Assembly: GCF_028330985.1 (NCBI RefSeq)
Contig: NZ_JAQMUE010000088.1
Span: 1 to 64,000, forward strand
Length of the DNA stretch: 64,000 nt
Direction: 5' to 3'
DNA from: Roseofilum reptotaenium CS-1145
GTDB taxonomy: Bacteria > Cyanobacteriota > Cyanobacteriia > Cyanobacteriales > Desertifilaceae
The translations under genes and the position numbers were made by a program. Below, piece after piece: positions 15,114 to 24,098 of the stretch. The first letter of the stretch is position 1. Every line of letters begins with the position of its first letter. Under the pieces are notes generated by a model. The model was not told the origin of the DNA and searched no databases. It saw nothing but the letters and a program-made list of their open reading frames with translations.

Positions 15114-16076
15114 ATGAACACTTACCCAGATGACAGTAGCCAATCTTCACAGCTCGATACCCATTACGACACCACCCTGGATGTCAATTCAGACCCTTAT
15201 AACACCTATGAGGATCAAACGTATCATTGGAACCACGACCATTATGACTCCAATCAAGACCAATCCTCGGTTGTCGGACATCCAGCCGAGGAAATGAACT
15301 ACTAGCATCAGCAGCAAGATGATTATAGTTGTGGGATTGCCGTGCAGCAATCGGCGATCGAACATCTCACCCATCACCCTTACTCAGAAGCGCAACTGAG
15401 CCACTATGCCGAACAGCGAGGTTGGTACGACTCTGCCCATGGAACCCATAGTGAGGACTTTGGCAAACTTTTGGCAAATCAAGCCCAAGTTCCCGTCGAG
15501 AGCCATCTAGGGGCAAATTTAGGGGAAATTAGCACCAAATTAAACCAGGGTGAAGAGGTTTTTGTTGCCGTTAATTCCACCGTTGAATGGTTGCCCGAAA
15601 TCATCGACCCCCATCTACTTGCAGGACAACCCGCCGACCATATTGTACAAGTGATTGGCGTAGAAATTGACCCCCAAACCCAACAACCCACCCATGTCAT
15701 TGTCAATGATTCGGGTTCACCAGAAGGGCGCGGTGTAGAGATTCCAGTCGAGCAATTTCAAGTCGCCATGGATGCCAGTCATGATTATATGGCATCGACG
15801 GAAAGTCACCATCAATCCTCTTGGTTTACCAGCCATTTAGGGAACGCTGAATCCATGACCTTTGGCTGTAAGATTTGGACTGACAATTACCACAACGTTT
15901 GGCTTGATAACGGTATAGTTGGCACGTATAACGGCAACAGTTTCTATTGGAAAAATGGCAATGTTGCTGGGAATTGGAATTGCAATAACCATCATGCCTA
16001 TAATGCTCATGGACAAGATTTAGGCTATGCCCAAACCTGGTCAGATGCAGCATTATTAATCTACAACCAAAGTTAG
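15114..16076 (+). pseudogene. C39-peptidase-like gene interrupted by an in-frame amber codon
   Basis: One continuous frame from the ATG at 15114 to TAA at 16074-16076, broken only by TAG at 15303-15305. The first part (63 residues) is a Tyr/Asp/His-rich leader ending AEEMNY. Directly after the stop the frame resumes HQQQDDYSCGIAVQQSAIEH, with Gln and Cys (codon 15330-15332) placed as in C39-like cysteine peptidases. Further on, PADHIVQVIGVEID and THVIVNDSG supply the His and Asn/Asp positions. The last 75 residues (FGCKIWTDNYHNVWLDNG onward) are an Asn/Tyr-rich domain I do not recognise. A GTG at 15342 could restart translation, but only after the catalytic Cys. Either a recent nonsense mutation (for example TGG to TAG) or a readthrough gene. 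It lies just upstream of the DGR. Confidence 0.7.
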
Positions 16077-16100
16077 TCAAAACAAAAAAAACAATCCACC

Positions 16101-16164
16101 GTAGGGGCGGGTTATACCCAAATCTAGAAATCTCATCCATAACTTCCCTGAACCCGCCCCCACC
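16101..16164. repeat. Palindromic GTAGGGGCGGGTT element, left of the DGR
   Basis: Ends GTAGGGGCGGGTT (16101-16113) and AACCCGCCCC (from 16151) form an inverted repeat around about 40 bases. The first 26 bases recur in inverted orientation at 20892-20917 with one mismatch, so two copies flank the DGR. No coding capacity. Confidence 0.8.
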
Positions 16165-16299
16165 CTCTCGCTAAAATTTCGTTTGTAGTGAGGGCTTGAG
16201 CAATCTCCAGCTAGACTTTTAAGCACTAAAGTACTTACTACAAACAAAGCCCTATTTTAGGTGAAACAGTCCACTACAAAATTATCGGAGGAAATCATC

Positions 16300-19029
16300 A
16301 TGAAATCACTACCTGGAAAACAAGGATTAGTGCAAAAATTTGGAAATTGGGCTAAATCTGTTGTCTTTCCCACTAAAGCCATAATCGATAACCGAACAGA
16401 AAATACTGAAATCATGGCTGCCAATCAACGGCAGATTGCTGAACAGCAACAAAAAATCCAATTGGAAGGCTTGAAATTACAATATGTCCTGCAAGAGCAA
16501 CGGCGGGAACATGAAGCGGAGCAAGCGGCATTATCGCGGGAATTTCAAGCCGCACAAGCCCAACTCTCTAGGGAACATCAAGAAGCGCTGACTCGATATA
16601 TTCAAGACTCGGAAAACCGCCGGTTAGCCTCGCACATCGAACACGAACGGTGGCTAGAGGCGCAACGGCAACAACTGCAACAGGAACTGCAAAAAAGCCA
16701 GCAGGAATTTAGCTTGTTTATGGCGTTCTTGACGGCTAAAATTAATCGAGATAACGATCAAGAGCGGCGCATTCTGGATACCCAACCTTGGCGCACTCCG
16801 CCGAAACCGTTGATGCAATATTACGAGCAATATCGAGACCGTTTACCAATTCCTCCTTTGGTGGTGGTTTCGCCTCCGGATGTGGAATTTGACCGCTATC
16901 CGAATGCGGGTTCTGGACTGCCGCGAATGGCGAATGATATTGAGGATGAATTGAGCAATTTTCTCGAATGCCATTATTCGGAAGGGGACTCGGAACGCCC
17001 GGCAAAACCGATTACAGGACTCTGGGATACAAACCGAATGAAAGGTGACACGGCGGTGCTGTCGTTGCACTATCTGTTTTCGGCTGTGCCGACGATTATT
17101 TTAGAGTCGAAAGTTTCAGGAGATTTGCTGAATTTTTCTCTGTTTTTCTGGGATGCGGGACAACCAGATTGGCAGAAAGAATCGATTTTATTCCAGTTTT
17201 CCCATAAAGAGTTTATTTATGACGCGCAGCGAGAGTTGGCGCGGGAGTGGCAGCAGAAGAAAGAGAAACTCACAGAAGCGGAGGTTCAAGAAGCCATAAG
17301 TGATGCTAAAGAAAATGAAATTGACGACTTTAACTTAAAGAAACTGCTGAGAGAAGAAAAACGTATAGCCTCAAATGCCAAAGTTGCAGTCGAGTATCGC
17401 CCTACGACTTCCGGTATTATGCGGCTGAAAAAATATCTGAGCCGATTCCATTGTCTTGCGGCAGGGATGAGGCTGGATGACTATCATTTGCTGCGTCATG
17501 GCACTGCGCCGAAAATGCCGGAATTGCTGGCTGAGTTTATTGAGGGGATGTCTGACTATGAGGTGCAACCGCTCCTGGAAGGTGTCCTGACTCACTACCA
17601 AGCGTTGATAGAAAAGTCGGGTGAGGTGGGGTTGGATGTGCCCAGTTTGCTGTTGGATGTGGCTTTGGCGTTCTCGAATTTGCCGGATTCTAACCCGACG
17701 CAGCAGTTGATGGAAGCGTCTATTGCCCGTTGGCTTTCCCAGCGCCAACTTCCGGTTACGGGTGAAGCGCTGGAGACTCTGGGGAGTGCCTTGAATATTG
17801 CCGATGAGGGGTATGTGGCGAAGTTGAATCAGTGTTTGTTGGTGGTGGGAGACTCGCGAAAACTCGATATTGCCCAGTCGTGCCACCATCGCGGGGTGAA
17901 ACGGTTGGAAGCGCAAGATTATGAGGGGGCGCGGTATGATTTTGAGCAAACGATTACTCTGGCTCCTCGTGCCATGGCTTATTATTACCGTGCCTTAGCT
18001 TATCAGGGGTTGGGAGAACTCCAGCAGGCAATGACGGATTTGGATAAGGCGGTGAAACTGCAACCAAGTCGCCCTGAGTTTCATGAGGCGCGGGGGGATG
18101 TTTATCGGCAGTTGAAGGATGTGGAGACAGCGCTGGCGAATTATGCGGAAGCGGTAGAGAAGGGTTCTCAGAGTGCGGCGCGGAAGTATGAGGAATTACA
18201 ACGGTGGCGGGCGGATGAGCGCCGGAGGGCGAAGGAAGCGGAGGAAGCACGGCAACGAGCAGAGGTGAAGCAAAGGAGACGGGAGGAGGAGCGACGGAAG
18301 GCGCTGAATATTCCGATTCCGGTTACTTCGACTTCGCTCAGTAACCTAATGCTGGAGCTGGTGTATGTGGAGGGGGGGACTTTCCAGATGGGAAGTACAA
18401 AACGCGATGATGAAAAGCCGGTTCACGCGGTAACTGTGCCGGAGTTTCGCATGGGCAAGTATCCCATAACTCAGGCTCAGTATGAGGCGGTGATGGGGAC
18501 TAATCCTTCTTCTTTCAAGGGGGCTAACCGCCCTGTGGAAAAGGTGAGCTGGCATAAGGCTCAGGAGTTTTGTCAGAAGCTTTCAGAACTGATAGGGCAA
18601 CCGGTGCGGTTGCCGAGTGAGGCGGAATGGGAGTATGCAGCGCGTGGTGGCAGCCGGAGCCAGGGTTATAAGTATGCAGGCAGCAATAACTTGGATGAGG
18701 TGGGTTGGTATAGCGGTAATTCGGGCAGCAAAACCCATGATGTACGGACGAAAAATCCGAATGAACTGGGTATCTATGATATGAGTGGGAATGTTTGGGA
18801 ATGGTGTGCGGATGAGTGGCATAGTAACTATGAAGGCGCACCTAACGATGGGAGTATATGGTCAAATAGTGATGAAGAAAATCAACAAAAACCCCGGCTG
18901 CTTCGTGGGGGTTCTTGGGTCAACCTTTCAGACAATTGTCGCTCTCGGAATCGCGCTAGGATTGTGGCGGACCTTAGGAACCTCAACGCCGGTTTTCGCG
19001 TGGTGTGTCCCTGGGCGATGACGACCTAG
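16300..19029 (+). CDS. DGR target protein: coiled coil, unknown domain, TPR, FGE-sulfatase/lectin-like variable domain
   Basis: A 909-residue protein from the ATG at 16300, which follows GGAGG with good spacing; a GTG at 16261 is also open. Parts, in residues from 16300: a basic N-terminus; a long Gln/Glu-rich coiled coil (about 40-165); an unrecognised alpha/beta region (about 175-420) with TIILESKVSGDLLNFSLFFW; a helical region; TPR repeats (about 540-640); an Arg/Glu-rich linker; and a C-terminal FGE-sulfatase fold (about 680-909) with VEGGTFQMGS, PVEKVSWHKAQEFC, LPSEAEWEYAARGG and NVWEWCADEW. The last 40 residues are the DGR variable repeat. FGE/C-type-lectin folds are classic DGR scaffolds that tolerate massive variation on a binding surface. 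The TPR and N-terminal parts suggest a recognition protein linked to an unidentified output. No catalytic role is inferred. Confidence 0.88.
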   Translation: MKSLPGKQGLVQKFGNWAKSVVFPTKAIIDNRTENTEIMAANQRQIAEQQQKIQLEGLKLQYVLQEQRREHEAEQAALSREFQAAQAQLSREHQEALTRYIQDSENRRLASHIEHERWLEAQRQQLQQELQKSQQEFSLFMAFLTAKINRDNDQERRILDTQPWRTPPKPLMQYYEQYRDRLPIPPLVVVSPPDVEFDRYPNAGSGLPRMANDIEDELSNFLECHYSEGDSERPAKPITGLWDTNRMKGDTAVLSLHYLFSAVPTIILESKVSGDLLNFSLFFWDAGQPDWQKESILFQFSHKEFIYDAQRELAREWQQKKEKLTEAEVQEAISDAKENEIDDFNLKKLLREEKRIASNAKVAVEYRPTTSGIMRLKKYLSRFHCLAAGMRLDDYHLLRHGTAPKMPELLAEFIEGMSDYEVQPLLEGVLTHYQALIEKSGEVGLDVPSLLLDVALAFSNLPDSNPTQQLMEASIARWLSQRQLPVTGEALETLGSALNIADEGYVAKLNQCLLVVGDSRKLDIAQSCHHRGVKRLEAQDYEGARYDFEQTITLAPRAMAYYYRALAYQGLGELQQAMTDLDKAVKLQPSRPEFHEARGDVYRQLKDVETALANYAEAVEKGSQSAARKYEELQRWRADERRRAKEAEEARQRAEVKQRRREEERRKALNIPIPVTSTSLSNLMLELVYVEGGTFQMGSTKRDDEKPVHAVTVPEFRMGKYPITQAQYEAVMGTNPSSFKGANRPVEKVSWHKAQEFCQKLSELIGQPVRLPSEAEWEYAARGGSRSQGYKYAGSNNLDEVGWYSGNSGSKTHDVRTKNPNELGIYDMSGNVWEWCADEWHSNYEGAPNDGSIWSNSDEENQQKPRLLRGGSWVNLSDNCRSRNRARIVADLRNLNAGFRVVCPWAMTT
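18894..19012 (+). repeat. DGR variable repeat (VR)
   Basis: A 119-bp segment at the 3' end of the target gene that aligns without gaps to 20543-20661. There are 13 differences (first at 18919, last at 18988), and every one is at an adenine of the template. The 3' end, TTTTCGCGTGGTGTGTCCC, is invariant and is the expected initiation-of-mutagenic-homing side. The changes alter eight codons: five of the template's AAY codons now read Val, Leu, Ala, Ile or Leu, one more reads Leu, CAG reads Arg and ACC reads Ala. Confidence 0.95.
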
Positions 19030-19082
19030 CCCTTTTCTCTTTATTCCTTTTTTCCTTTACACTTCTTTACTTTTTTTCTCTC

Positions 19083-19107
19083 TTCCGCCGAAGGCGGAAT
19101 TTTTTTT
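19083..19107 (+). terminator. Hairpin with T-tract after the DGR target gene
   Basis: Stem TTCCGCC (19083-19089) and GGCGGAA (19093-19099), loop GAA, followed by eight T residues. This is a typical intrinsic terminator for the target gene. DGRs of the Bordetella phage type also need a hairpin just 3' of the VR; here the distance is about 70 bases, so that second role is only possible. Confidence 0.8.
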
Positions 19108-19119
19108 CAAAATAACGCC

Positions 19120-19470
19120 ATGAACGAACTATCGATTATCCAGAAAACCTACGATCTGATTAAATGGTATGTACCCATTCTCAATCGCCTGCCCCGCACT
19201 CACAAGTTCCTCTTAGGAGACCGCATGATTGGGGGGCTGTACGATTTACTGGAGAACTTGATTATAGCACAATATGAGTCGGAAAAACTGAAACTTCTCA
19301 TTCCCCTGAACAGTCGGCTACAAATTTTGCGCTATCAAACCCGCCTACTGCGAGATTTTGACTTAATTTCGGTTCAACGCTATGAGTATGTGGGAGGGTT
19401 GATGAATGAAATTGGCAAGGAATTGGGCGGTTGGATTAAACAACAGCAACGACGAGAGAAAAATTCATGA
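19120..19470 (+). CDS. avd: DGR accessory variability determinant (bAvd-like)
   Basis: A 116-residue all-helical basic protein that fits the four-helix-bundle Avd family: [22 protein letters not shown], then [17 protein letters not shown], and a C-terminal [20 protein letters not shown] helix. Avd forms a pentamer that binds the reverse transcriptase and the template RNA and is needed for mutagenic cDNA synthesis. The stop overlaps the RT start (ATGA at 19467-19470), so translation is coupled. Its position between VR and RT is the usual one. Confidence 0.92.
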
Positions 19471-20525
19471 AACGCTATGGTTATCTTGGGTCAGATATTG
19501 TGGAGTTTAGCAACTTACTGCAAGCGTCCCGACAAGCCCAACGAGGCAAACGATTTAGGGACTCAGTGCTGGCATTCAATTATCACTTGGAACAGAACCT
19601 AGGGCAACTGAAACGAGAGTTAGAAGATCGCATCTACGAGCCGGGAGAGTACAACACCTTTTACATCATGGAACCGAAGAAACGGATGATTTCTGCGGCT
19701 CCCTATCGAGACCGAGTGGTTCACCATGCCTTGTGTAATGTTATTGTACCGTTATTCGATCGCTCCTTTATTTCTGACTCCTATGCCAATCGTGTGGGCT
19801 TTGGCACTCACCGCGCCCTCAAGCGCTTTACCAAGTTTGCCCGGTCTCATGATTATGTTTTACAATGCGATATTCAAAAATACTTTCCTAGTATTGACCA
19901 CGAAATACTGAAGTCCTTAATCCGCAAAAAAATTAAATGTCCGGATACGCTCTGGCTCATCGATACCATTATTGACCATAGCAATGAACAACCGGTTGCT
20001 ATTCACCATTTTCCAGGAGATGATTTACTCTCTCCTCTGGCACGGAGGCGAGGATTACCGATTGGGAATTTAACCAGCCAGTTTTTTGCTAACATCTATC
20101 TGAATGGCTTTGACCACTTTGTGAAAGAGAAACTCAGGGCTAAGTCCTATGTTCGCTATGTGGATGATTTTGCTCTGTTCTCGAATGACCGCGAATTTCT
20201 CAGGGAAGCGAGAGAGGAAATTGAAGAGTATCTAGGGCAATTGCGGCTAAAAATTCACCCGATTAAAAGTCAAACGTTTTCTACTCGTCACGGAGCAAAC
20301 TTTTTAGGATTTCGTATTTTCCCTGACTGTATTCGAGTTCGCAATGAAAACCTCAGACGATCCAGACGGCGATGGCGAACGTTACAAAATGACTACGCTG
20401 AAGGTAAAATAGAGATGGACTCTATTCAACAGTCTTGGCAAAGCTGGTGCGCCCATCTGGAGTATGGCGATACCTGGCAATTGCGTCAACAGGTATTTGC
20501 TTCACTGGTCTTTTCTAGGGAGTAA
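19467..20525 (+). CDS. DGR reverse transcriptase
   Basis: A 352-residue retron/DGR-clade RT that copies the template RNA with adenine-directed errors. Visible: a finger region with RYGYLGSDI at the start; [11 protein letters not shown] (RT motif with catalytic Asp); the DGR hallmark IGNLTSQ at 199-205 in place of the QGxxxSP of other RTs; the catalytic YVDD at 231-234; and a thumb region with [11 protein letters not shown]. All catalytic residues are intact, so it should be active. The gene overlaps avd by four bases and ends 17 bases before the template repeat. Confidence 0.96.
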
Positions 20526-20542
20526 AGAAGGGGTAGGCAACT

Positions 20543-20661
20543 CCGGCTGCTTCGTGGGGGTTCTTGGAACAACAATTCAGACAATTGTCGCTCTCAGAAT
20601 CGCAATAGGAATGTGGCGGACAATAGGAACAACAACACCGGTTTTCGCGTGGTGTGTCCCT
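20543..20661 (+). repeat. DGR template repeat (TR)
   Basis: A 119-bp repeat 17 bases after the RT gene, matching the VR at 18894-19012 at a constant offset of 1649. In the VR reading frame it is rich in AAC/AAT codons (reading W-N-N-N-S-D-N, later R-N-N-N-T-G), the design that gives the widest amino-acid choice when A is mutated. It is not itself a gene. Confidence 0.95.
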
Positions 20662-20857
20662 TGGCGATTACTCTTCGCTCTCAGAACTCATTCATGGGAA
20701 TGAATGGGGGGTATTTCTGAAGAGTCAAGACCTATTCCTGGGATGTTCGCGAGAGCATCCGAAAATAAACCGGCGTTGGGCAGCTTAGTAGGTGATGTTC
20801 GCGAATATGACTCGAAAGGCTGTCCAATTCCACTCTTTTGTAATTTCCTAGTGGGGT

Positions 20858-20917
20858 GGGGCGGGTTTAGGGGATTGATTGGTGGGTGTTTTAGATTTGG
20901 GTATAACTCGCCCCTAC
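20858..20917. repeat. Palindromic GTAGGGGCG element, right of the DGR (inverted copy)
   Basis: GGGGCGGGTTT (20858-20868) and AACTCGCCCCTAC (20905-20917) are the ends of a palindromic element. Its 20892-20917 arm is the reverse complement of 16101-16126 with one mismatch. Together the copies bracket the DGR. Confidence 0.8.
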
Positions 20918-20968
20918 GGGGAATTTGTGATAAAATTAAATCTGTTTAGTAACGTTGATCGCCTAACC

Positions 20969-21133
20969 ATGTTACTTCAGCAAATCAAGGAAAAGCTAGA
21001 CCAACTCAATGATGAACAGTTAAACCAAATTGCTGATTTGATCCATGCAATTGAGGCTCGCGATCGTCATCCTACCGGACAGAATAGCACGTTGATTATT
21101 TGTATAAAGAATAATATTATTTTTAATTTTTAA
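20969..21133 (+). CDS. Small antitoxin-like peptide, possibly truncated
   Basis: From the ATG at 20969, 54 residues: MLLQQIKEKLDQLNDEQLNQ and then IADLIHAIE form a good amphipathic N-terminus like those of small cyanobacterial antitoxins. After about residue 38 the sequence becomes Ile/Asn-rich and unlike a protein, which suggests that the 3' end was lost. It is convergent with the next minus-strand gene and overlaps its 3' end. It may be the broken partner of the PIN remnant at 21.8-22.0 kb. Confidence 0.35.
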   Translation: MLLQQIKEKLDQLNDEQLNQIADLIHAIEARDRHPTGQNSTLIICIKNNIIFNF

Positions 21134-21341
21134 TTGAAGTACAGAGTGCTGTGGCTAAGGGTTCCGAAAGCTCAATAGGCATAAAATACCCTTGAGGATA
21201 CAAATAATCTTCTCCAGATTCATCAATCACACGAATCATATCCTGCAAATTGGCGTGCCGATCTGGAAGAGTTTGATAAATTTTCCGTAATTCCAAAGAA
21301 GCCGGATAACCTTGATTATTAATGCACACTACAAATTCCAT
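21123..21341 (-). CDS. Small conserved cyanobacterial protein of a TA-like cassette
   Basis: A 72-residue protein, MEFVVCINNQGYPASLELRK with IRVIDESGEDYLYPQGYF and then IELSEPL. This is a pattern I recognise as very common in cyanobacteria, usually next to a small partner gene, and often taken as toxin-antitoxin-like. Biochemical function is unknown. It is the third gene of a minus-strand set, 9 bases after the 77-residue gene. Confidence 0.7.
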   Translation of the reverse strand: MEFVVCINNQGYPASLELRKIYQTLPDRHANLQDMIRVIDESGEDYLYPQGYFMPIELSEPLATALCTSIKN

Positions 21342-21350
21342 AAACTAAAT

Positions 21351-21584
21351 TTACTCCAAAATATATTTAATCTTGATTTCTTTTTTACCGATCCCATGAG
21401 CTTCATACCAGTGCAATTCAGCTTCACAGATGGTTCCATTCTCTAACTCAATAGTAGCAATTCCCTTTAACTTACGCCAGCGACCCGATCCATAAACTTT
21501 TCGCAACCGTTCAATCTCTCGAATAGAGTTTCCAACGGCAATAATTTCAATACTTTTAATTTCCCCAAATATCTCAAAGTTCAC
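21351..21584 (-). CDS. Small conserved protein, possible toxin of a TA-like cassette
   Basis: A 77-residue beta-rich basic protein containing IEIIAVGNSIREIERLRKVY, then GSGRWRKLKGIATIELENG and EAELHWYEAHGIGKKEIKIK. Members of this type are widespread small cyanobacterial proteins. The composition (basic, compact, coupled to an acidic upstream partner) fits a toxin, but that is inference. Its start overlaps the stop of the upstream gene (ATGA at 21581-21584). Confidence 0.7.
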   Translation of the reverse strand: MNFEIFGEIKSIEIIAVGNSIREIERLRKVYGSGRWRKLKGIATIELENGTICEAELHWYEAHGIGKKEIKIKYILE

Positions 21585-21805
21585 TTCAGTAATTTATCTT
21601 GCAGATTCGACCAAATATCTCGATTAATTTGCTCGGACAGATTTTCTGCGTCTGTTTCATATAACTGGCTACGGTTCCTGATGATTTCTAGTTCCAGATA
21701 ATCTAAGAATTTTGTCATTCGATCCTGACTGATTAAATTGCGATCGATCTTGACCACAATATCTTCATTCTCAAGTGTTATTTCATATAAGGATTTGTTA
21801 CTCAT
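21581..21805 (-). CDS. Small acidic protein, possible antitoxin
   Basis: A 74-residue protein, MSNKSLYEITLENEDIVVKI with a helical acidic C-terminus (YETDAENLSEQINRDIWSNL). It is first in the three-gene minus-strand cassette and translationally coupled to the 77-residue gene by a four-base overlap, the arrangement of many antitoxin-toxin pairs. No recognised DNA-binding motif. Confidence 0.65.
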   Translation of the reverse strand: MSNKSLYEITLENEDIVVKIDRNLISQDRMTKFLDYLELEIIRNRSQLYETDAENLSEQINRDIWSNLQDKLLK

Positions 21806-21807
21806 CC

Positions 21808-21979
21808 AAACCTCTGGCTAGATTTAGTGACCAGCGATCGCATCCTGGGAAAACGAACCCATGATGCTCGTTTAGTTGCGGTGATGATTTCTTATCATAT
21901 CACCCATATTCTCACGTTTAATCTTAGTGATTTTATCACTAAATCCACCCTTGTGGTGGTAGATCCCCATTACCGGTGA
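21808..21979 (+). pseudogene. Remnant of a VapC/PIN-domain toxin
   Basis: A plus-strand frame without a start, ending TGA at 21977-21979, reads LVTSDRILGKRTHDARLVAV and then MISYHITHILTFNLSDF and VVVDPH. This is the C-terminal third of a PIN toxin: the THDARLVA helix with its acidic residue and the ILTFNxxDF strand are typical. The N-terminal part with the first active-site Asp is missing. The three-gene minus-strand cassette lies directly before it, so it may have replaced the 5' part. Confidence 0.75.
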
Positions 21980-22184
21980 TAAAGATTTATTAGTTTTATT
22001 AGAATATCAGCAAATTCCAATTATGACTGTCAAGTTAGCAATGACAGAGTGGGACTGAGGATTTCCGATTGTATTACCCATTGGTAATATTAAGCTCTGT
22101 ATCGTTGGGCACGGTTTACTTTAAGAATCACTTACAATATAAGGTAAAGGTATTTGCCACATCAAATTTTTGGGAGATTGAGTC

Positions 22185-22382
22185 ATGTTAGTCATTATGA
22201 TGGACGATCGGATTATTTCACCAAAAACGGTTTGCCAAAGCTGTTGCTGGGCGGATCGCAGTGGTGAACCTCGTTGGAGACAGGGAAATTTGACCTGTGG
22301 TCATCCTTTGGCAAAAAGCGATCGCCACATACCGAATCAGTATGAATGTCAAATGGGATTCCGCATCGCCCAAATTAGTTAG
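22185..22382 (+). CDS. Small cysteine-rich conserved protein
   Basis: A 65-residue protein with cysteines in CQSCCW, LTCGHP and YECQMGF, arranged like a small zinc- or metal-binding module. The context TVCQSCCWADRSGEPRWRQG resembles uncharacterised cyanobacterial proteins. GGGAG lies about 10 bases before the ATG; an internal ATG (MMDDRII) is possible. It is convergent with the TPR gene. Function unknown. Confidence 0.6.
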   Translation: MLVIMMDDRIISPKTVCQSCCWADRSGEPRWRQGNLTCGHPLAKSDRHIPNQYECQMGFRIAQIS

Positions 22383-22445
22383 AAGTTGACTTTCATCCCT
22401 CAATGGGTAACCCAACACTATCCTTAAGTAGAACTTCAGTAAATT

Positions 22446-24098
22446 CTAGGGCGCTGACTTGCGGCTCAGGCTTTGTAAGCCTTGACGGGCGGTTTCTTGT
22501 TCTGGCTCTAGTTTTAAGGCTTCTTGAAAGGCTTCAGCCGCATCCGCATCTCGACCGGCTTTTTGTAACATTACGCCTAAAGCTGCCCAGACGCTGGCAT
22601 TTTGGGGGGCAAGACGTACAGCTTGAGCGTAGGAATAAATAGCTCTTTCGTATTGACCGAGGGAACCATAGGTTACGGCTTGATTGTACCAGCCTAGGAA
22701 TGAGGTTTCATCTAGGGCGATCGCCTCTTGTGCCGATTTTAAGGCGCGATCGTACTCGGTCAGATACCATAAGGCTACACTGCGATTAGCCCATCCATCG
22801 GCATTCTCTGGCTCGTAGCGTAGGGCTTGATCGTAGGCTCCTACTGATTCTACATAACGTTCGGCCGATCGCAACACCCTCCCCCGATTAAGCCACGCTT
22901 GCACATAATTCGGTTGCAGTTGCAGAGCGCGACCAATCGAGTCTAAACTTTGGCCATAGTCTTCTAAATACCAGAGCGTTACCCCTCGACTATTCCACGC
23001 TTCGGCAAAATCGGGACGAAACCCCACAGCGCGGTTAGCTGCAACTAACCCTTGTTCGAGTTGCCCTTGTTGAGTATAGGCAATTGTGAGTTGATTCCAA
23101 GCTCCCGCAACGCCCCTGTCTCCCCATGTTCCATCACCTTTGAGTGCCGCTTCACACGCTTTGATGGCTTCTTCATGGCGTTTGAGTTTATTCAACGTTT
23201 CACATTGCAGGACGAGAGCCAACGTAGAATCTGCTTGTAGGGAAAGGGCTTGAGTGTAGGAATTGAGCGCTTCTAAATCTCGCCCCATCTCATTTAGCGC
23301 CATTCCCTGTTGAATCCAAGCCTGTAGATTTTGGGGATTATTATTTAAAGCTAGATCGTAAGCGGCGATCGCCCCTTCTGCCAACTCACTTTGATTTAAG
23401 GCAATTCCTAAATATTGCCACGCCAGGGTTTCCGACTCATGTTCCCAGTTATCATTGATCTCAATCGCCGTTTGACAAGCGGCAATCGCATCCTGATATT
23501 GTTCCAACTCTAGCAGCGCCCCACATTTATAGGTTAAAACCAAGGAAGACTCTGGTTCTAAATTTAAGGCGCGATCGTATGACGTTACTGCATTTTGATA
23601 TTCTTCTAGAGCCATCAGAATCAAACCGCGCTGATACCAAGCGATGACGGGATTTTCCTGTCCCCAATTCGTATCTAAGCGCAGCGCTTCTTCACACGCT
23701 TCTAGAGCTTCTTCATAGCGCCCTAACTTCAATAAAGCCTGGCAGCGATAGGTAAACGCGCGGGAAAACTTGGATTCTAGACGAGTAGCTGTATTTGCCG
23801 AGGCAATGGCTTCAGCATAGCGATTCTGTTGTAGTAAAATACGACTGCGATCGGCCCACACTTGAGAATCTTTTGGTCTCATCAACAGTGCCTGCTCGCA
23901 CGCTTCCAGCATTTTGCCCGCATCTTCATCCACCGACAAATTACATAAATTCGCCCAATAGTCAAAATCCGCCAGTTGACGAAAAGGATCGAGAAATTCC
24001 AGTTGTGCATTCACCCGACTGGGAAAACCGCAGAGCATTCCCAGCACTACCCCAGAAAGAGAAATCCAAAATCTTCGTTTACTGCTCACGTTCATCAA
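22446..24098 (-). CDS. Exported TPR-repeat protein
   Basis: A 550-residue protein with an N-terminal signal peptide (hydrophobic FWISLSGVVLGMLCGF, likely cut after VNA near residue 32) followed by about 13-14 tandem TPRs (for example AWYNQAVTYGSLGQYERAIYSYAQA). The TPRs fill the rest of the chain and form a solenoid, so it probably acts as a scaffold in the periplasm or thylakoid lumen. No catalytic domain. It is divergent from the exported pentapeptide gene with only 21 bases between the starts, so the two may share a control region. Confidence 0.9.
   Translation of the reverse strand: MMNVSSKRRFWISLSGVVLGMLCGFPSRVNAQLEFLDPFRQLADFDYWANLCNLSVDEDAGKMLEACEQALLMRPKDSQVWADRSRILLQQNRYAEAIASANTATRLESKFSRAFTYRCQALLKLGRYEEALEACEEALRLDTNWGQENPVIAWYQRGLILMALEEYQNAVTSYDRALNLEPESSLVLTYKCGALLELEQYQDAIAACQTAIEINDNWEHESETLAWQYLGIALNQSELAEGAIAAYDLALNNNPQNLQAWIQQGMALNEMGRDLEALNSYTQALSLQADSTLALVLQCETLNKLKRHEEAIKACEAALKGDGTWGDRGVAGAWNQLTIAYTQQGQLEQGLVAANRAVGFRPDFAEAWNSRGVTLWYLEDYGQSLDSIGRALQLQPNYVQAWLNRGRVLRSAERYVESVGAYDQALRYEPENADGWANRSVALWYLTEYDRALKSAQEAIALDETSFLGWYNQAVTYGSLGQYERAIYSYAQAVRLAPQNASVWAALGVMLQKAGRDADAAEAFQEALKLEPEQETARQGLQSLSRKSAP

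Follow-up and report, generated by a model that had tools for sequence, protein, structure and literature searches.

A stretch of 64,000 nucleotides from Roseofilum reptotaenium CS-1145 (contig NZ_JAQMUE010000088.1, positions 1 to 64,000; hereafter the window) carries a chromosomal diversity-generating retroelement (DGR) of a known cyanobacterial clade, with a target of the FGE/C-type-lectin type, and compensating base changes among related loci reveal a covarying RNA fold made up of about 160 nt behind its template repeat (TR) and 8 nt ahead of it. We consider it probable that this fold, flanking the TR, sets where complementary DNA (cDNA) synthesis starts and stops, and that the mutated cDNA rewrites the variable repeat (VR) of a probable sensor. 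The presence of a DGR had been predicted from the letters of the window, and that observation is confirmed; the RNA around the TR, a hairpin behind the VR, the domains of the target and an upstream gene go beyond what the original prediction described. For a filamentous cyanobacterium such a DGR is nothing unusual; the interest lies in the RNA fold. All features described below lie on the forward strand.

A covarying RNA fold around the template repeat

The TR (20543–20661) is followed by a conserved structured RNA element at 20669–20830, identified by covariation and by a covariance model. In the nearest relatives found, R. halophilum BLCC-M91 (L001; reverse transcriptase (RT) 93% identical in the first search) and R. 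acuticapitatum BLCC-M154 (L002; RT 90%), identity to the window over the 173 nt behind the TR is 96.0% and 94.8%, as against 91.1% and 90.4% for the RT in the same comparison, and the likeness stops at 20834 in the former and at 20922 in the latter. For covariation we used an alignment (A1) of the window with 33 of the 38 loci having a TR/VR pair (52 loci searched, same strand only), leaving out L042, L043, L045, L048 and L052 as distant. Over these 34 aligned loci RNAalifold predicted 53 pairs, 40 of them with changes on both sides. Once pairs internal to the TR are removed, a 48-pair structure remains in which 93.4% of 1,610 cells pair and both-sided changes reach 38 pairs and 236 cells, where shuffles give 23.2 and 65.3 and not one of 500 attained either figure; slid control structures gave a maximum of 31 pairs and 67 cells.

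Behind the TR the alignment resolves helices P2a (20670–20676 with 20719–20725), P2b (20687–20695 with 20700–20708) and P3 (20742–20747 with 20754–20759), and a strong terminal hairpin, P4 (20773–20785 with 20818–20830). A further helix, P1, joins a strand ahead of the TR (20530–20537) to one behind it (20731–20738) and so closes a loop around the TR; six of its eight pairs are already present in RNAalifold's own solution, and taken alone it holds 25 double-changed cells against 5.2 in shuffles, with none of 500 as high. P2a couples the 3' end of the TR with a strand ending two bases before A20728, the predicted priming nucleotide, which is adenine in all 34 rows of A1.

These positions suggest how the element may work. 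If expressed in the organism, as we infer, an RNA spanning the TR and its flanks would fold so that P1 closes the loop containing the TR and P2a brings the TR 3' end beside A20728, which most likely primes reverse transcription by RT–Avd. The RT–Avd complex would then copy the TR from 3' to 5', misreading A, and cDNA synthesis would halt at P1, terminating near 20538; the A-mutated cDNA would replace the VR, altering residues of the lectin-fold domain of the target. For the Bordetella phage element BPP-1, PMC12875486, which also presents a reconstituted BPP-1 assay in E. coli, describes an internal spacer adenine that primes cDNA at the TR 3' junction and a motif before the TR that ends it, and in Nostoc punctiforme, according to PMC12691664, TR RNA is highly expressed and A-specific mutation is reported.

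The fold recurs in loci that played no part in its definition. A covariance model built on the region 3' of the TR (alignment A3, which further omits L037 and L047) detects eight of ten clade loci outside the model (L011, L018, L021, L028, L029, L031, L038 and L081) and, outside the clade, L037 (1.9e-8), L047 (2.6e-6) and phage BalMu-1 (0.0054); it gave no match in BPP-1, VP58.5, ACA1, L080 or the other distant loci scanned. Among 25 RNAs outside the model, aligned by fitting to it and possibly including near-identical strains, 96.0% of 968 cells are paired and 188 are double-changed, where shuffling gives 54.4. Sought anew in 16 of these 25, P1 is significant (p <0.05) in eight (Fisher p 7e-9); in this test and that of the invariant A the anchor was misplaced in L095. 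At the same two places, a contiguous helix was found below 0.05 in 6 of 12 DGRs outside the clade (Fisher p 1e-6), and in 5 of 10 (Fisher p 2.7e-5) once L037 and L047, both in A1, are set aside; L048 and L052 show nothing. We used contiguous-helix tests for these comparisons, an RNA-duplex test that permits long gapped pairings having failed to discriminate.

The RNA also keeps company with the RT. Across 194 cyanobacterial genomes the model gives 26 matches in 18 genomes, and 12 of the 194 hold 14 full-length RTs of the clade (62–100% identity), 13 of which have the RNA 147–215 nt downstream on the same strand (four of these RNAs, those of L003, L032, L041 and the window, were in the model). 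The 17 genomes with distant RTs only (33–42%) yield no RNA match, and seven genomes have the RNA with no RT at E 1e-30. Template RNAs were located by the model in eight loci where the same-strand TR/VR search had found nothing or was not run. At L018, L021, L028 and L038 the template RNA lies on the strand opposite the RT; the VRs for L018 and L028 carry 12–17 A changes and 0–1 other, and a VR search for L021 and L038 found none. Separately, a paper on Nodularia spumigena (PMC3610870) describes strong transcription that starts 199 nt behind a DGR RT, and 70 genome copies, at least 98% identical, of a non-coding RNA element at that start.

A search of Rfam (4,227 models; positions 16000–22500, E up to 1) gave no match other than one chance-level microRNA match at 21968–22029. 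Nor did the literature searched, which did not include the BPP-1 structure paper, yield a description of a conserved DGR RNA fold or any paper treating Roseofilum and a retroelement together. Handa et al. (2025) are said to suggest that an RNA-based mechanism is conserved in distant DGRs.

The cassette and its homing within Roseofilum

The VR (18894–19012) aligns to the TR without gaps over 119 bp, and all 13 mismatches fall at TR adenines, just as the original prediction had it; adenines make up 29 of the 119 TR letters, giving a chance probability of about 1e-8, or 9e-10 by the hypergeometric distribution. Moving outward, the next mismatches lie at VR positions 18893, 19013 and 19020, where the TR letter is T, so the repeat ends are correctly placed. 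TR and VR are direct repeats 1,649 bp apart, and are the only pair in the organism's own 5.67 Mb genome, in which neither a second TR/VR pair nor a remote VR was found. In the VR frame none of 39 TR codons can turn into a stop through a change of A, whereas the two remaining frames have 1 and 3 such codons of 38. The bias towards adenine sites also marks 41 TR/VR pairs from 33 sources (partial and distant pairs left out), where 596 of 1,246 adenines are changed (272 to T, 231 to G, 93 to C) as against 11 of 3,717 other letters.

Behind the VR stands a hairpin (19083–19099), a recognised DGR feature, with a 7-bp stem, a GAA loop and a following T run, at a distance of 70 nt and the same in both relatives. 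Hairpins in this position are required for BPP-1 homing according to passages of PMC3240598, and GRA loops are described for archaeal DGRs in part of PMC4372165. Since only 17 of the 41 VRs have a comparable hairpin within 130 nt (1.7% of shuffles do), the feature is not general.

The protein components are equally characteristic. The accessory gene avd (19120–19470) scores 133.7 bits with NF033474 (curated cut-off 80) and 77.3 with the bAvd family PF22296 (cut-off 40). It is followed by the RT gene (19467–20525), whose reading frame shares four bases with it, bearing out the predicted coupling of the two. DGR RTs carry (I/V/L)GNLTSQ instead of the usual QGxxxSP, and both motifs named in the prediction are present, as PIGNLTSQ and YVDD. 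The best solved structure for the RT is chain A of 8ub7 (E 4.4e-49), which we take to be the Bordetella complex and whose entry also contains a chain named Avd; the runner-up is a group II intron RT (1.1e-17). PADLOC matches the RT to generic RT models and the target and Avd to nothing.

In a tree of 55 rows the RT falls inside a clade that unites 35 DGR RTs of cyanobacteria and Thiotrichaceae (support 100/98), which answers the question, raised with the prediction, of whether it might lie outside the DGR clade. The tree omits L033 and L047, which have stops in translation, and L034–L036, L038, L040, L044, L046, L051 and L052; L061 is a long-branch row. Membership of the cyanobacterial DGR clade (clade 5E of PMC10907252) is read from this tree of our own, not from the published tree itself. 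Seven of the 35 rows are Thiotrichaceae RTs (L011, L018–L022 and L024). Their placement suggests exchange between sulfur bacteria and cyanobacteria, in contrast to the statement in PMC7517822 that cyanobacterial RTs are not shared with other bacteria.

Three of the six Roseofilum genomes contain this RT (other RT matches in the genus are 27–33% identical), and this trio allows homing events to be ordered relative to TR mutation. At the 85 columns where all three TRs share the same non-A letter, the VRs depart in 1 of 255 cells, the sole departure being 19013, just 3' of the copied stretch, whereas 33 of 80 A cells are changed; the variation at C, G or T in relatives that would have spoken against the prediction is thus rare. 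The window and R. halophilum TRs differ at 13 columns, and each VR matches its own TR at ten of these, the remaining three being A in the window TR. TR changes made since the species split have therefore reached the VR, a pattern that supports continued homing after the two lineages parted. In R. acuticapitatum three non-A TR letters, unlike those of both other species, are absent from its own VR, and its last homing seems older than these private changes. Its cassette is joined to a protein with 25% identity in the N-terminal part, and a copy with 89% identity (L133), with no RT next to it, lies at another place in that genome; there has thus been an exchange of either the cassette or the N-terminal part. 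The description of the element as active accordingly holds in the sense of homing after the split from R. halophilum and is not supported as activity today. The perfect flanks that had been read as a sign of recent homing say little on the matter, because the TR has no adenine in 20543–20567 or 20638–20661 and A-directed change could not be displayed there.

Alternative readings and traces of loss

Several observations weigh against the proposed role of the fold. The four P1 pairs with both-sided changes are equalled in 23 of 500 shuffles; L011, a locus outside A1, has G at the predicted priming position; and P1 is missing through a gap in L017, poorly formed in L030 and was not found in L031. 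The RNA is lacking at clade loci L036 and L044, both with incomplete RTs, and at G160, the exception among the full-length RTs; in BPP-1 P1 is not above chance (p 0.35); and the gene beside the target is interrupted.

Of the other explanations, the one that survives best is that the DGR is dormant or dying, having diversified its VR in the past without still working in this lineage. The interrupted partner gene would fit such a history, as would the single TR/VR pair in the genome, the lack of the RT in three of six genus genomes, a genome (G005) that retains an A-diversified target with no RT, and the many RNAs without an RT elsewhere. Yet avd, RT, TR and RNA are all intact in the window, the 119 bp contain no non-A mismatch where R. 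acuticapitatum has three, and the RNA element is 95–96% identical to those of the relatives, above the 90–91% of the RT, and we judge dormancy unlikely.

The traces of loss are themselves informative. G005 has no RT of the clade, and its target (L136) is 86% identical in DNA. By eye, most departures of the L136 VR from the TRs are at A sites; resemblance of this target to the window breaks off at 19093, inside the hairpin. Thirteen RNA matches come without a full RT (L137–L149). In four of them (L137, L142, L144 and L148) the RNA begins between −27 and +7 nt relative to where an open reading frame (ORF) of FGE type ends, fusions that we take to be the expected product of recombination between VR and TR. 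Five (L138, L139, L140, L145 and L147) have a TR and lie 328–538 nt behind an FGE-type ORF, with no avd or RT in 14–16 kb; L146 has a broken RT and L149 an avd fragment, and L141 and L143 lack an FGE-type ORF. Such RNAs would be either scars or TRs served in trans. At L148 (genome G047), the VR part of the target is AAY-rich like a TR and runs straight into the RNA element, so that the same stretch may serve at once as coding sequence and as template.

The element behind the TR might instead be a transcription terminator or processing signal, which would fit its position, 3'-most in the cassette, and its finish in the strong hairpin P4. Its several helices, conserved unpaired stretches and invariant A argue otherwise, as do P1, which reaches across the TR to sequence ahead of it, and the lack of a T run 3' of P4 in the window; and the weak BalMu-1 match (2835–2975) starts at the last bases of the TR (2717–2836), ahead of the RT. 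We regard this alternative as improbable. That VR and TR are ordinary duplicates of a lectin-domain fragment, homogenised by gene conversion, as direct repeats at this spacing might be, is already refuted by the adenine bias, which gene conversion does not yield, and a DGR RT and Avd are present besides.

Target, neighbourhood and related systems

The target, or variable protein (16300–19029), is encoded by an ORF of 922 aa open from a GTG at 16261, with the ATG at 16300 the more likely start; Pfam and structural models divide it into a long helix, an unnamed region, TPR repeats (residues 571–639 of 922, 17971–18177; TPR_2 9.2e-12 and others) and an FGE-sulfatase/C-type lectin domain (18355–19005; PF03781 4.8e-51). 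The VR thus lies at the 3' end of the gene within a C-type-lectin-like fold: a model of the domain from 32 sequences (mean pLDDT 81.3) is nearest to Treponema denticola variable protein 1 (2y3c; TM 0.83 by query length), a protein far shorter than the target and without its TPR and unnamed N-terminal part. A family matching residues 1–556 occurs in 44 of 147 genomes of the order. Ahead of the TPR, Pfam gives nothing above its cut-offs; the N-terminal model, from a four-sequence alignment, has a mean pLDDT of 68.9 and no PDB match at E ≤0.001, and given this low confidence and want of a match we claim no function for that part. Among viral contigs, seven pattern matches proved unrelated to it. 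The target as a whole, a large coiled-coil/TPR/lectin protein, is probably a sensor.

Upstream lies a conserved gene (15114–16073), interrupted in the window by an in-frame stop at 15303–15305. Genus-wide, all five other copies of the target's N-terminal relative are preceded by the same gene, uninterrupted at that position. An identity as a peptidase has weak support: DUF3335 'Peptidase_C39 like' appears at E 0.067 in two of six family members, and the gene has no PDB match. The neighbours are chromosomal by Pfam label (serine hydroxymethyltransferase, ribosomal protein S4, indole-3-glycerol phosphate synthase, CbiG and citrate synthase). Oppositely oriented copies of a dispersed repeat flank the cassette (16093–16168 and 20850–20925); we do not read them as transposon ends, the 12-base core occurring 38 times in the genome and not once read backwards.

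Among known systems, the cyanobacterial DGRs of Vallota-Eastman et al. (2020; PMC7517822) are similar in RT clade, avd, TR and a C-terminal lectin-fold target fused to other domains, with TPR, found here too, among the partners listed; the present target has no kinase domain, and that paper's main text uses none of the terms 'secondary structure', 'stem-loop' and 'RNA structure'. The clade 5 DGRs of multicellular bacteria (Dore et al. 2024; PMC10907252, in part) share the clade, a lectin-fold target with a long N-terminal part and a multicellular host group. We can reject membership among the conflict-system sensors described there, whether of the MoxR/vWA ternary or the STAND type, as no MoxR, vWA, NACHT, CHAT, TIR or trypsin domain was found in the target or in 27 ORFs of at least 120 aa beginning before 41000.

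BPP-1 shares TR, VR, avd, RT and the hairpin behind the VR, and by eye its TR 3' end is able to pair with the spacer just before position 56, presumably the adenine that serves as primer. It differs in gene order (target–avd–TR–RT, as against target–avd–RT–TR here), in its phage tail target and in P1, as noted above.

A wider proposal may be ventured tentatively, as possible rather than probable: that the fold is the general architecture of DGR template RNAs, with a helix closing the TR loop that sets the cDNA end and one at the TR 3' end that sets its start, maintained through compensating changes in cyanobacteria, sulfur bacteria and phages alike, and that recombination between VR and TR can delete avd and RT, freezing a chosen sensor and leaving the RNA as a scar behind the target gene. 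The covarying RNA provides a model, at base-pair level, for priming and termination in DGRs other than BPP-1, and the covariance model offers a marker for DGRs that have been lost or split.

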